64,000 nt of DNA from Ignatzschineria larvae DSM 13226 (lineage in GTDB: Bacteria > Pseudomonadota > Gammaproteobacteria > Cardiobacteriales > Wohlfahrtiimonadaceae): contig NZ_CP150637.1 in NCBI RefSeq assembly GCF_038500265.1, forward strand, positions 583,501 to 647,500. The letters are read 5' to 3'. A program made the position numbers and the translations under genes. Within the stretch, counting starts at the first letter, position 1. Every line of letters begins with the position of its first letter. The notes under the pieces are model-generated. The model was not told where the DNA came from, did no database searches, and saw only the letters and a program-made list of their open reading frames with translations. Of the stretch, positions 1,919 through 61,661 are shown one piece after another.

Positions 1919-2091
1919 TATAGTAAATTTGGTCTAAGGAAAATGGTTTTAAGCAGCTGGTATGAGATTTTAAAAGCGCATAAAACTTGACTAAACAACA
2001 CTTACAAGATGCCGGATAGAACAGCTTCCTTGCCTCGATCATCTGATGCGCCGGCATTTAAATAAGCTTATTTTTAACCGATCTTACTATA
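1919..2091 (+). repeat. 173-bp TATAGTAA element, copy A
   Basis: First copy of a repeated intergenic element that starts TATAGTAAATTTGG and ends GATCTTACTATA, giving 8-bp perfect and about 20-bp imperfect terminal inverted repeats. An internal palindrome ATGCCGG...CCGGCAT (near 2010-2057) is shared with other copies. No conserved reading frame crosses the copies. This copy lies between the convergent permease and ahpD genes. Other copies: 14990-15120, 33777-33885 (partial), 33886-34059, 50478-50650, 61490-61661. Confidence 0.85.
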
Positions 2092-3983: not shown

Positions 3984-5849
3984 ATGAAACTTGCTTCAAA
4001 ATCACGCCGGAAACATTACCAACAGTTACGGGAAAATCACTATGATCTGATTATTATTGGCGGTGGCATTAGTGGCGCAGCGATTGCTTTAGATGCAGTG
4101 ACTCGAGGGATGAAAGTTGCACTACTTGAGAAGCAAGATTTTGGCTTTGGTGCAAGTAGTCGCTCGACAAAACTGATTCATGGTGGCTTGCGTTATCTAC
4201 AATCCTTTCAGTTAAAACAGGTCATGCACAGTGGTGAAGAGCGGGCGCTTCTCTATGAAAATGCACCCCATTTGGTGACTCGCCGGAAGATGTTGATTCC
4301 TTTCTATAAAGGCGGTTCGTTTGGCAAAATTCGGACAGCCATTGGGCTTCGATTATATGATTATTTGGCGAAAGTGAAAGCCGATGAACGGCAGCAGATT
4401 CATTCAAAATCAGCACTGCTATCATTAGTGCCGGCATTAACAGATCAAGGCTTAAAAGGGGCAGGTGAGTATGTTGAATATGTGGTGGATGATGCGCGTT
4501 TAACATTAGAGATCATCAAAAAAGCGATGGAGAAAGGCGCTCACTGCTTCAATTACCTAGCGGCTATCGATTTTAATTATGATGATAAAGGCTATATTGA
4601 AGGCGTTGTTGCGCGAGATCAGTTGACGGGGAATCGTTATCTTATTGAAGGTGATTTCTGCCTGAATGCTGCCGGCGCTTGGCGACAATCGTTATTAACC
4701 TCTCAAGATGATCATTCGATAGATTCTTCTACAGCTACGGTAAAAGATCAGTCAAGCACTGATCGCTCAGCTAATAATAGATTACCTGATAGCGCGATTA
4801 AATGGATTAAAGGTGCGCATATTGTCTTTGATCAGACATATTTCCCTTTGAAAGAAGCGGTTTGTATCGAGATAGATCCTCAAGAAGAGGGGAGTGAACC
4901 TAAGCGTAAAAAAGAGATGGTGATGGCGATCCCGTATGCCGGCAAAACCTATGTGGGGGTAAGTCAAAGTGAATATGAAGGCAATGTGGATATGCCAACG
5001 ATTTCAGTGAGCGATCAAGGATATCTGTTATCGGCTGTGCAACGATTTTTCCCTAGCCTTAATTTGACGAGTGAAATGATTGAGTCGGGCTGGGCGGGTG
5101 TAATGCCGATCACTGCTCATAAGGAGCCATCTTCTAAAAAAGATCAGCCGGTGAGCGCATTACTCGATGAAGCCGAGAATGGTTTATTAACGCTTATGAG
5201 TGGTAAATTAACAGGTTATCGCTCGCTTGCACAAGCTGTTGTTGATGAGTTAGCCAGTAAAATTATGACAGTTAAGCAGCGACAATTTAAACCTTGTCAA
5301 ACAGCTCAATTGCCTGTTTCGGGCGGAGATGTTGGCGGTAGTGCAGGACTAGATCATTTCTTGCAGGAAGCGATTAAGCGCGGAGAGGCAGTGCAGTTGA
5401 CTGCGGAGGAGAGCCGAGCTTTAGCAATGCGTTATGGTAGCAATGTAGATCAATTATTGACGATTGCCGAGAAAGCGACACCGGACGTATTACAAGGTTT
5501 ACCGCTGCTGCTCTATACCCAGCTCTATTACAGCGTGACAGAGGAAGGGGTGATGACCCCTTGCGATTTCTTTATTCGCCGCTTAGGCGCGCTCTATTTT
5601 GATATTGATTTAGTTAAAAATCATCGAGTTGCAGTCGTTGAGTGGATGGCGCGTTATTTTGGTTGGTCAATTGCTGAGGTTAAGCGCTATAATGCAGAGC
5701 TTGAACAAGCGCTCTATCAGGCAACGCATGCAGTAGAAGATGACCGTATTGTGAAGATTACTCATCAAACTGACGATAATCAATCGCAAAATAGAATAAG
5801 CAAGGATGCAGAGGAAGTCGGCACTCAGAAAAATGAAGTCGATGTGTAG
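3984..5849 (+). CDS. glpD: FAD-dependent glycerol-3-phosphate dehydrogenase
   Basis: Oxidises sn-glycerol 3-phosphate to dihydroxyacetone phosphate at the membrane, passing electrons to quinone. The dinucleotide-binding motif GGGISG is at residues 26-31, followed by ASSRSTKLIHGGLRYLQ (57-73), diagnostic of GlpD/GlpO. At 621 aa it is about 120 residues longer than E. coli GlpD and resembles the longer type common in Firmicutes. A polar Ser/Asp-rich insertion lies near residues 241-266 and a charged, disordered-looking tail occupies the last 25-30 residues. AAAGGA is 8 nt before ATG. No glpF or glpK is nearby. Confidence 0.88.
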   Translation: MKLASKSRRKHYQQLRENHYDLIIIGGGISGAAIALDAVTRGMKVALLEKQDFGFGASSRSTKLIHGGLRYLQSFQLKQVMHSGEERALLYENAPHLVTRRKMLIPFYKGGSFGKIRTAIGLRLYDYLAKVKADERQQIHSKSALLSLVPALTDQGLKGAGEYVEYVVDDARLTLEIIKKAMEKGAHCFNYLAAIDFNYDDKGYIEGVVARDQLTGNRYLIEGDFCLNAAGAWRQSLLTSQDDHSIDSSTATVKDQSSTDRSANNRLPDSAIKWIKGAHIVFDQTYFPLKEAVCIEIDPQEEGSEPKRKKEMVMAIPYAGKTYVGVSQSEYEGNVDMPTISVSDQGYLLSAVQRFFPSLNLTSEMIESGWAGVMPITAHKEPSSKKDQPVSALLDEAENGLLTLMSGKLTGYRSLAQAVVDELASKIMTVKQRQFKPCQTAQLPVSGGDVGGSAGLDHFLQEAIKRGEAVQLTAEESRALAMRYGSNVDQLLTIAEKATPDVLQGLPLLLYTQLYYSVTEEGVMTPCDFFIRRLGALYFDIDLVKNHRVAVVEWMARYFGWSIAEVKRYNAELEQALYQATHAVEDDRIVKITHQTDDNQSQNRISKDAEEVGTQKNEVDV

Positions 5850-14989: not shown

Positions 14990-15120
14990 TATAGTAAATT
15001 TGGTTTAAGAAAAATGGTTTTAAACAACACTTGCAAGATGCGGGATAGAACCGCTTCCTTACTTATTACAACCGATGCGCCGGCATTTAAATGAGCTTAT
15101 TTTGAACCGATCTTACTATA
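14990..15120 (+). repeat. TATAGTAA element, copy B (internal deletion)
   Basis: Same orientation as copy A and both ends intact, but only 131 bp. About 42 bp are missing after GGTTTTAAACA, where full copies carry an extra block flanked by short AACA-like direct repeats. It lies between the convergent pflA and xpaC-like genes. Confidence 0.85.
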
Positions 15121-33538: not shown

Positions 33539-33638
33539 ATCGATTTTATTCTCCCTTTTCTCTTTCTATCAGTATGCGTTAATAGGCATTAACAGATATT
33601 AATAGGTAAAGAGGTCAAAGCTAAGAAGATTGATTGCA

Positions 33639-33685
33639 TTGCCGGGGAGAATGATCTTGTTCTTTTCATAATCCTGCGCCGGCAA
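33639..33685. other. 7-bp inverted repeat downstream of dnaG
   Basis: TTGCCGG (33639-33645) pairs with CCGGCAA (33679-33685) over a 33-nt loop. It resembles the internal ATGCCGG/CCGGCAT palindrome of the nearby repeat elements and could be a decayed remnant. Confidence 0.3.
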
Positions 33686-33741
33686 ATTGAGCATCTTTCA
33701 ATATCTGGCGATACAGGTCAGCGAAGTTGGAGAGATAAAAA

Positions 33742-33776: not shown

Positions 33777-33885
33777 TATAGTAATATCGATTCAAAAGAA
33801 GCTTATCCAAATGCCGGCGCATCAGTTGATCGAGGCAAGGAAGCTGTTCTATCCGGCATCTTGCAAGTGTTGTTTAGTACGGTTT
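33777..33885 (-). repeat. TATAGTAA element, copy D (truncated)
   Basis: Begins TATAGTAATATCGATTCAAA and carries the internal ATGCCGG/CCGGCAT palindrome. It then breaks off at GTTTTA, where copy C begins. It has the same orientation as copy C and about 109 bp survive. Confidence 0.8.
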
Positions 33886-34059
33886 TATAGTAAGATCAGT
33901 TCAAAAGAAGCTTATTCAAATGCCGGCACATCAGTTGATCGAGGCAAGGAAGCTGTTCTATCCGGCATCTTGCAAACATTGGTTAGTAAGAGTTTTATGT
34001 TCTTTTAAAACCCCACAATAGCTGTTTTCAAACCATTTTTTTAAACCAAATTTACTATA
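33886..34059 (-). repeat. TATAGTAA element, copy C (full length)
   Basis: A 174-bp full copy in inverted orientation relative to copy A, fused head-to-tail with the truncated copy D at a shared GTTTTATA. It lies between convergent dnaG and the ABC permease gene. Confidence 0.88.
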
Positions 34060-37363: not shown

Positions 37364-38521
<1,158 letters not shown>

Positions 38522-45756: not shown

Positions 45757-45794
45757 CTTATGAGTTATTCTATCTTTTCTCTATTTTAAATAAC

Positions 45795-47393
45795 TTAATC
45801 GCGTGTGCGCTTTGGTGCTGAACGTTCGAAACGCTCCCCATTATTGTTTCCTCTGCGATCTTGGCTGCGATCATTATTACGGCGATCATTGTTACGATTA
45901 TCACGATCACCAAAGCTACGGCGCTCACCATCTCTATTAAAGCTTCTGCCTTCAGAGCGATTGCGATCGTTACTACGATTATCACGATCACCGAAACTAC
46001 GGCGTTCGCCATCTCTATTGAAGCTTCTGCCTTCAGGGCGATTGCGATCATTACTGCGGTCATTGCTACGATTATCGCGATCACCAAAGCTACGGCGTTC
46101 ACCATCTCTATTGAAGCTTCTGCCTTCAGAACGATTACGGTCGTTGTTACGATCGTTACTACGATTATCGCTGTCACCGAAACTACGGCGTTCACCATCT
46201 CTATTGAAGCTTCTGCCTTCAGAGCGATTGCGGTCGTTGCTGCGGCGATCATTGTTACGATTATCGCGATCACCGAAACTGCGACGTTCACCATCTCTAT
46301 TGAAGCTTCTACCTTCAGGGCGATTGCGATCATTACTGCGGTCATTGCTACGATTATCGCGATCACCAAAGCTACGGCGTTCACCATCTCTATTGAAGCT
46401 TCTGCCTTCAGATCGGTTGCGATCGTTGCTGCGGTCGTTGCTACGGCGATCATTGTTACGATTATCGCGATCACCAAAGCTACGGCGTTCACCATCTCTA
46501 TTGAAGCTTCTGCCTTCAGATCGGTTGCGATCGTTGCTGCGACGATCACTGCTACGATGGTCACGACTCAATTCTGCACGGCGTTCTCTTTGGCTACCGC
46601 TCACTCGGCGAGCTTTAGAGCGTTGACGTTCGGTTTTCTCATCGAGGACGACACGTTGATGCTCAAGACCGACAGATTCCACTAATTCTTTGAGTGTTTC
46701 AGGATCGATATCGATAAATTGACCTTCTCTAAGGCCTTTTGGAAGCTCCACATTGCCATAACGAATACGGATGAGGCGTGATACCATCAAGCCTTGTGAT
46801 TCCCAAAGACGGCGAACTTCGCGGTTTTTACCGCCTTTTACGGTAACATGGTACCAAAAGTTCGCACCTGTACCGCCAGACCAAAGGATCTCTTCAAATT
46901 TAGAAACACCATCTTCAAATTCGATACCATTACGCATATTATCAGCCATTTCATCGGTAAAATCGCCGATAACGCGAACTGCATATTCACGTTCAAGTTC
47001 ATGAGAAGGGTGCATAAGTCGATGGGCAAGCTCACCATCGTTCGTCACAAGTAGTAAACCTTGGGTATTAATATCCAAGCGACCGACAGTAATCCAACGT
47101 CCTTGACTAATACGTGGCAGGCTATCGAAGATCGTTGGGCGACCTTCAGGATCGTGACGTGAAGTGATTTCACCTTCAGGCTTATAATAGATTAAAACTC
47201 GGCGTTCTTGTTGCTCATTGCTGATCTCGACTTTGCGACCATCAAGCGTGATATTCTCTGTACCATCCACTTGGCAGCCAAGGATTGCGGTTTCGCCATC
47301 TACTTTGATGCGACCTTCGCTAATCCAGTTTTCAACTTCTCGGCGCGAACCTAATCCCAGGTTTGCTAAAACTTTTTGTAAACGTTCTTTCAT
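45795..47393 (-). CDS. rluB: 23S rRNA pseudouridine(2605) synthase RluB with repetitive tail
   Basis: A 532-aa protein. An S4 RNA-binding domain (about 1-60, MKERLQKVLANLGLGSRREVE) is followed by a pseudouridine synthase domain with the catalytic Asp107 in GRLDINTQGLLLVT. YKPEGEITSRHDPEGRP matches RluB. It isomerises U2605 of 23S rRNA. After about residue 270 comes a very basic, disordered tail. It is made of seven near-identical units containing EGRSFNRDGERRSFGDRDNR, joined by variable NDR/SNDR spacers. E. coli RluB (291 aa) has only a short tail. AAGGACATC precedes the ATG. Confidence 0.92.
   Translation of the reverse strand: MKERLQKVLANLGLGSRREVENWISEGRIKVDGETAILGCQVDGTENITLDGRKVEISNEQQERRVLIYYKPEGEITSRHDPEGRPTIFDSLPRISQGRWITVGRLDINTQGLLLVTNDGELAHRLMHPSHELEREYAVRVIGDFTDEMADNMRNGIEFEDGVSKFEEILWSGGTGANFWYHVTVKGGKNREVRRLWESQGLMVSRLIRIRYGNVELPKGLREGQFIDIDPETLKELVESVGLEHQRVVLDEKTERQRSKARRVSGSQRERRAELSRDHRSSDRRSNDRNRSEGRSFNRDGERRSFGDRDNRNNDRRSNDRSNDRNRSEGRSFNRDGERRSFGDRDNRSNDRSNDRNRPEGRSFNRDGERRSFGDRDNRNNDRRSNDRNRSEGRSFNRDGERRSFGDSDNRSNDRNNDRNRSEGRSFNRDGERRSFGDRDNRSNDRSNDRNRPEGRSFNRDGERRSFGDRDNRSNDRNRSEGRSFNRDGERRSFGDRDNRNNDRRNNDRSQDRRGNNNGERFERSAPKRTRD
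45885..46530. repeat. in-frame minisatellite in rluB (7 units of about 81-105 bp)
   Basis: Seven tandem units, each including the plus-strand segment CACCATCTCTATTGAAGCTT or a one-base variant, differ mainly in a variable spacer of 3-bp multiples. The repeat keeps the rluB frame open and incidentally opens long frames on other strands and phases. Confidence 0.93.
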
Positions 47394-50477: not shown

Positions 50478-50650
50478 TATAGTAAATTTGGTTTAAGAAA
50501 AATGGTTTTTAAACAGCTATTGCGGGATTTAAAAAAACATAAAACTTGACTCACCAACAGTTGCAAGATGCCGGATAGAACGGCTACTTTATTCCTTACA
50601 ATCGATGCGCCGACATTTCAATAAGCTTATTTTGAACCGATCTTACTATA
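50478..50650 (+). repeat. TATAGTAA element, copy E (full length)
   Basis: A 173-bp full copy in the same orientation as copy A. The left end TATAGTAAATTTGGTTTAAG and right end GAACCGATCTTACTATA are intact, though the internal palindrome has one change (CCGACAT). It is the only locus not between convergent genes: both flanking genes run on the minus strand. Confidence 0.88.
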
Positions 50651-61489: not shown

Positions 61490-61661
61490 TATAGAATATC
61501 GGTTCAAAATAAGCTTATCGAAATGCCGGTGCATCGGTTGTAATCAGTAAGAAAGTCGTTCTTTCTTGCATCTTACAACTGTTGTGAATCAGGTTTTATG
61601 TTTTTTTAAAATCCCGCAATCGCTGTTTAAAAACCATTTTTCTTAAACTAAATTTACTATA
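61490..61661 (-). repeat. TATAGTAA element, copy F (full length)
   Basis: A 172-bp full copy inverted relative to copy A. The outer end near 61490 reads TATAGAATATCGG, one base off the consensus terminus, and the internal palindrome is degraded on one arm. It lies between convergent sufT and the DUF1275 gene. Confidence 0.85.

Follow-up and report, generated by a model that had tools for sequence, protein, structure and literature searches.

A repeat family with IS630-type ends and a covarying hairpin in Ignatzschineria larvae and related species

Among the small repeats of bacterial genomes, MITEs and REP-like palindromes are usually treated as separate groups. The repeat family analysed here has counterparts in both of them. 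RUP, described together with IS630-Spn1 in the excerpts consulted of PMC2229807, is short and intergenic, is present in about 100 copies (108), has IS630-like ends and uses TA as target, and by this description the repeat of Ignatzschineria larvae resembles it. RUP, however, is 107 bp long and resides in another host, whereas the body of the repeat in I. larvae is a hairpin repeat that is also found without ends. The Correia elements of Neisseria (NEMIS, CREE) begin with TATAGT, have TA termini and occur in two size classes about 50 internal bp apart, as far as the excerpts of PMC2229807 and PMC5039591 describe them; here the two classes are 42 bp apart. Membership in the Correia/NEMIS family was rejected on the basis of the 26-bp Correia repeat, since the ends are identical at 10 to 14 of 28 positions to two of the four repeat variants printed in PMC5039591.

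REP, BIME and REPIN repeats are composed of extragenic hairpin units, which may form ordered tandem clusters and display compensatory changes in the hairpin (excerpts of PMC3116915 and PMC3733652), and these features are also seen in Ignatzschineria. The Ignatzschineria hairpin differs from these repeats in its bigger unit, in the GTAG tag and the RAYT, neither of which was detected, and in the IS630-type ends mostly accompanying it in three of the species. BrickBuilt from Porphyromonas is a MITE with an internal repeat, and QMITE2 from Coxiella is one with end-less copies resembling REPs (excerpts of PMC10969869); both have another anatomy by description, and in Ignatzschineria the cargo is shared with species lacking the ends. 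For Ignatzschineria, no paper on transposable elements was found, and among the matches listed there was none on repeats of the genus.

Our main reading, to which we assign a probability of about 90%, is that of a MITE: we interpret the 173-bp repeat as a non-autonomous DNA transposon with TA ends, of the RUP/Correia type. In itself such an element adds one more example to a known kind; what is new is the shared hairpin cargo, in a genus in which no RAYT was detected. Within this one genus, the same covarying hairpin occurs in end-free arrays and also, as cargo, in IS630-type MITEs whose interiors vary. The genus thereby offers a natural case for asking how transposon ends and folded repeats are brought together and whether selection keeps the fold. 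The analysis also explains a repeat that is met more than 100 times when the genome of I. larvae, an emerging fly-associated opportunist, is annotated.

Anatomy and copy number of the repeat

The window analysed is a stretch of 64,000 nt from the genome of I. larvae DSM 13226 (G000), which consists of one contig of 2,563,334 bp. Its GC content is 40.8%, and the published value for the strain is 40.5% (excerpt of PMC11556009). For the other genomes of the genus, handles are used where needed; we take G006 to be I. ureiclastica KCTC 22644, G007 an uncultured Ignatzschineria MAG and G008 Candidatus I. merdigallinarum.

One repeat family was found at five loci of the window, with four copies of 167 to 174 bp and a short form (Table 1). 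An original prediction, made from the sequence of the window, had named five loci with common ends and a first copy at 1919-2091, and both the number of loci and the exact coordinates were recovered. Its length of 172 to 174 bp for full copies holds for three of the five loci; one copy is slightly shorter (167 bp) and the 131-bp form is distinct. The ends of copy 1 are TATAGTAA and TTACTATA. Their inverted-repeat agreement is perfect over 8 bp (8/8) and imperfect over 20 bp (14/20), as anticipated, and extends imperfectly over 30 bp (17/30). The internal palindrome ATGCCGG/CCGGCAT, also noticed beforehand, forms the stem of a larger structure, hairpin A. No open frame common to the copies had been expected, and stretches without a stop in the five window copies extend over 46 codons at most. 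The repeat is not a product of chance, because the pattern TATAGTAA-N100-130-TTACTATA matched the window once and none of 100 shuffled windows.

Table 1. Copies and parts of the probable MITE in the window
Feature	Position	Strand	Remarks
Full copy 1, 173 bp with its terminal TA	1919..2091	+	left TIR, worn hairpin B, hairpin A, right TIR
Left TIR of copy 1	1919..1946	+	family consensus versus left end of IS630-type IS, 22/25
Hairpin A of copy 1	2000..2060	+	covariance model R1, 76.8 bits; stem 2009-2015/2051-2057
Right TIR of copy 1	2064..2091	-	consensus versus IS right end 19/25, versus IS left end 20/25
Short form, 131 bp	14990..15120	+	42 bp shorter; same site also occupied in I. ureiclastica
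Hairpin A relative, solitary	33632..33688	+	no terminal repeats; 42.8 bits
Partial copy, 112 bp	33777..33888	-	profile positions 63-174; tandem with 33886..34059, three-base overlap
Full copy, 174 bp	33886..34059	-	profile match
Full copy, 173 bp	50478..50650	+	profile match
Copy with worn right end, 167 bp matched	61495..61661	-	profile positions 1-168 of 174

The repeat had been predicted to be abundant, to be checked by counting copies genome-wide, and more than 100 further copies were indeed detected in I. larvae. The left end gave 104 matches in the genome (at most 3 mismatches in 32 positions) and the right end 128 (at most 2 in 21), while the reversed patterns used as controls gave none for either end. 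In one search for copies, 40 of 180 candidates were scored. A profile search of 320,856 bases of this genome, mostly chosen around copies, yielded 89 matches at 85 sites. Identity over 120 bp between I. larvae copies and their nearest neighbours had a median of 90.8% and reached at most 98.5% (67 copies). Several properties of a MITE are therefore found in the family: sizes of 131 to 174 bp, well under 500 bp, no coding capacity, terminal inverted repeats and a dispersed distribution in high copy number.

When 57 genomes were searched with the 173-bp copy, matches were obtained in six, G000 included, all of which belong to one genus. Genome-wide searches for the right end (at most 2 mismatches) detected 117 matches in G003, 163 in G006, six in G008 and one in G004, and none in G001, G002, G005 and G007. 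In I. ureiclastica, three core units lie behind a MITE in head-to-tail order, at intervals of about 119 bp and with junctions that overlap (G006:C1:316748-317283), an arrangement resembling the tandem at 33777-34059 of the window.

Terminal repeats and insertion sites

The ends, starting with TA, had been likened to those of elements mobilised by IS630-type transposases. Searches for the transposase domain DDE_3 were positive in three of the nine genomes of the genus, and in G003 an IS630-family insertion sequence with similar ends was identified. This element (locus L054) is about 900 bp long with ends at 1068 and 1965; its first open reading frame matches HTH_Tnp_IS630 (Pfam, E 1.7e-18), and DDE_3 is matched with 102 bits. 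Its left and right ends agree with those of the MITE consensus at 22 and 19 of 25 positions, respectively. In the cross comparisons, 20 of 25 positions agree between the right end of the MITE and the left end of the IS, 18 between the left end of the MITE and the right end of the IS, and 18 between both ends of the MITE. Because these values are as close, the similarity is one of the whole end type and not strictly one-to-one.

A full-length transposase with matching ends had been named as a check. An IS complete from end to end and with matching ends is thus available for the MITE in the sister species G003, but it is broken. Stop codons are present in L054 and in L056, another G003 locus with DDE_3, and a third, L058, is a partial match. 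The IS630 copies of I. ureiclastica (L053, L057) were considered as source of the ends and rejected, since their ends do not match. In I. larvae, the sole DDE_3 match is a fragment (L055) adjoining a MITE copy without recognisable right end. In all nine genomes of the genus, the search for an intact transposase with such ends was negative.

The presence of occupied and empty sites in related species should be indicative of a mobile element. For 29 of the 85 I. larvae sites, counterparts of both flanks were located in the I. ureiclastica sequence available for comparison. The repeat is present there at 21 of these sites and absent from eight, in a set biased toward shared sites because the I. 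ureiclastica sequence was mostly selected for containing the hairpin. The finding that would have spoken against mobility, a lack of empty sites in relatives, was not obtained. Empty sites between the two species were seen in both directions, and insertion of the TA-ended unit is demonstrated.

Comparison of empty and occupied sites had also been proposed for detecting a duplication of TA, and here the outcome was mixed. At G000:567543, the I. ureiclastica flanks join at a single TA, while the occupied site is bordered by TA to the left and by CA to the right. A single TA is also seen at the I. ureiclastica empty site corresponding to G000:2269574, where the right flank has diverged. For two copies of I. 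ureiclastica that are absent from I. larvae, the comparison runs in the other direction: the empty site of L077:2189-2363 contains TATA, two bases more than the TA model, and that of L113:3073-3245 reads TG. At further empty sites the flanks have diverged. Copy 1 of the window is absent from I. ureiclastica as well, but does not provide a clean empty site because the flanks there are different. A duplication of TA on insertion is likely, although no site shows it perfectly, as two of the empty sites are consistent with a single TA and one retains TATA.

One and the same locus may carry different size classes, because G000:267371 holds the 131-bp form in I. larvae and the corresponding site in I. 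ureiclastica (L121:2704-2877) the 174-bp form.

Hairpins with and without terminal repeats

The internal palindrome proved to be part of hairpin A, a unit of 57 to 61 nt that often adjoins a second hairpin, B. About 36 nt separate the stem arms of A, and a common 5' flank, CTTGCA, was read from the alignments. The arms of B vary by copy and read GCTGG...CCAGC, GCGGG...CCCGC or GTGGG...CCCAC.

The stem of hairpin A covaries. In 57 distinct rows, 93.0% of the stem positions are paired, 15 cells are double-changed, and the covariation score was reached by none of 500 shuffles. For hairpins without terminal repeats (set A6; 40 rows, 39 of them distinct, aligned with MAFFT instead of the model and obtained from 48 matches after removal of five short ones and three duplicates), 93.4% are paired, with 36 double-changed cells and again none of 500 shuffles reaching the score. 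Weaker measures give a less clear picture. The number of pair types was reached by four of 500 shuffles in the 57-row set and by 22 in A6, and the count of doubly changed pairs by 28 and 54, respectively. These values are to be read with the origin of the rows in mind: they were found by a model already containing the stem, they are related, and some are neighbours in an array.

Two further structures were examined, but we do not propose them. For a pseudoknot pairing the CTTGCAAG flank with the CTTGC loop of hairpin A, no shuffle out of 500 reached the score in set A3, but 82 did so in A6; the score of a fixed inner stem was reached by 169 of 500. Folded as RNA, the whole 173-nt copy is somewhat better than shuffles (z -1.92; 8 of 200 as good), and folded as DNA it is no better (z -0.33). 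A known RNA family was not detected at the element either: Rfam searches gave only two tRNAs in the window and, in five loci searched, only matches under the gathering score.

With covariance model R1, hairpin A was detected in eight of the nine genomes of the genus and in none of nine other genomes of the family. At least 150 matches each were obtained in G000, G003 and G006, 30 in G007, 16 in G008, three in G004, two in G002 and one in G005, and none in G001. A match to the hairpin in an alphaproteobacterial MAG (L109) has no 3' arm in the stretch inspected and GC-rich surroundings, and was taken as chance.

The ends are distributed differently. Among 37 distinct hairpin A matches at the loci examined in G000, G003 and G006, many of which were selected with the MITE itself, 19 are flanked by both ends, 14 by one and four by none, the chance rates being 4.5% for the left and 1.1% for the right end. 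Where the right end is present in these genomes, it usually finishes 31 to 32 nt past hairpin A (31 nt in copy 1). In G002, G004, G005, G007 and G008, by contrast, 32 of 33 hairpin A matches have no right end (at most 5 mismatches), the sole exception being one MITE in G004; this check included 13 of the 30 matches of G007, 14 of the 16 of G008 and all of those of G002, G004 and G005.

Copies without ends are often mosaics of A and B, some of them tandem (G004, G007, G008). Ordered tandem A-B arrays were observed at L257 of G007 (1341-1881) and L195 of G004 (1033-1795); their steps measure about 160 and 234 bp. A unit of B, linker and A is common to the G007 copies and the MITEs of G003 and G004, and in the I. 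larvae MITE its hairpin B is worn. Of the six right ends of G008, four belong to a shorter MITE composed of the left end and hairpin B only, the fifth is accompanied by B and a worn left end, and the sixth by neither left end nor hairpin B. The shorter MITE, with IS630-type ends and hairpin B only (L259, L260, L263, L264), constitutes a second family. What lies between IS630-type ends is hence A alone in the 131-bp form, B alone in G008, B-A in G003 and G004, and worn B with A in I. larvae, and the MITEs therefore seem to have acquired REP-like cargo. The original prediction had left the choice between a MITE and a dispersed palindromic element; a MITE is supported, and the alternative is partly right in that the hairpin repeat occurs without ends in sister species.

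Origin of the repeat and genomic placement

For a phylogenetic comparison of the species rpoB was chosen, since the window open reading frame 3984-5849 matched several copies per genome and was dropped. The tree contains the clades G000+G006 and G002+G004+G005, G003 pairs with G008, and a wider group of G001, G003, G007 and G008 is moderately supported (85/93). In the tree, species with the ends are intermixed with species in which the hairpins are mostly end-free. This implies loss of the ends in several species or, otherwise, repeated enclosure of hairpins or repeated transfer of the MITE.

Judged from the sequences, an IS630-family transposase would recognise the ends of the MITE in trans and cut there, and the element would insert at TA, most likely duplicating it. 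It spread both before and after the split of I. larvae and I. ureiclastica. In I. larvae it looks stranded today, as the sole DDE_3 match there is a fragment. The body is no random filler but consists of one or two REP-like hairpin units, A and B, which also exist end-free in the genus and were probably enclosed between IS630-type ends more than once. Between an ancient hairpin without ends that became enclosed later and decay of a MITE, we favour the former, because hairpin A is more widespread than the ends and the subset of A and B present varies among the MITEs. A wider proposal, which we regard as tentative and would place somewhat short of even odds, is that A and B represent a separate class of REP-like repeats, selected for their fold, spreading without a RAYT and repeatedly packaged by IS630-type ends (as A, B or B-A), with the MITE acting as vehicle for a pre-existing folded repeat.

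The serious rival is that the end-free copies are worn-out MITEs and that the hairpin is simply their interior, without any capture. MITEs losing their ends can come to resemble REPs, as described for QMITE2 of Coxiella in the excerpts of PMC10969869, and both the single MITE copy in G004 and the B-linker-A unit common to both states would fit. Yet G002, G005 and G007 are without any right end (at most 2 mismatches), although G007 has 30 hairpin A matches, and the genomes with hairpins and no right end span more than one rpoB clade. Covariation of the stem in copies without ends and the different MITE of G008, with hairpin B only, also argue against decay, which we consider less likely than not. 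The arrays and A/B mosaics without terminal repeats in G004, G007 and G008 recall REPINs and BIMEs, and the hairpins could instead be the mobile unit of a RAYT-mobilised REP/BIME family to which the TA ends are incidental. The RAYT domain Y1_Tnp was absent, however, from all nine genomes of the genus, while the control was positive in five of 14 genomes. In addition, a tag of GTAG or CGTC on a unit of 20 to 40 bp was not found; hairpin A is 57 to 61 nt long, has about 36 nt between its arms and is flanked by CTTGCA. The usually fixed distance to the right end in G000, G003 and G006 and the empty sites lacking the entire TA-ended unit point in the same direction, and we regard this reading as very improbable.

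Alternatively, the repeat could be a conserved structured RNA or regulatory site at fixed places that does not move. Covariation of the stem, the 21 of 29 comparable sites common to two species, and one end-free copy in closely similar surroundings in G002, G004 and G005 would be expected in this case. Empty sites nevertheless exist, eight of the 29 sites lacking the element in the sister species, and there was no Rfam match above the family cut-off at the element. Orientation does not help this explanation either: in tandem spacers of the copy-centred G000 set, 13 copies run along the genes and 20 against them, which gives no support for a strand-specific role of the whole MITE. For the TA-ended unit we judge such a role very improbable; a structured-RNA reading may apply to the hairpin cargo, not to the TA-ended unit. 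A strand-specific function was also considered for the end-free copies, of which six lie with and three against the genes in a hand count of tandem gaps with clusters counted once; these are too few to support it.

Placement was determined in 184 kb not selected copy by copy, namely the window and 120 kb of the I. ureiclastica contig holding its counterpart, with crude ORF calls as genes. All 20 profile matches are located in spacers, at densities per kb of spacer of 2.06 in convergent (8 matches), 0.56 in tandem (11) and 0.14 in divergent ones (1). Among the 85 sites of the copy-centred G000 set, 40 are convergent, 33 tandem and four divergent; four lie at an edge and four overlap an ORF call. 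Selection probably removes insertions in genes and promoters, which would account for the placement in spacers.

Two other repetitive stretches were observed in the window, both within open reading frames on the minus strand. A tandem array of the hexamer CGTGGT at 37891-38064 lies in ORF 37364-38521 and possibly encodes what we take to be a candidate Asp/His-rich metal-binding stretch. Direct repeats at 45789-46567, mostly spaced 81 to 108 bp, lie in ORF 45795-47393, which probably specifies a repeat protein.
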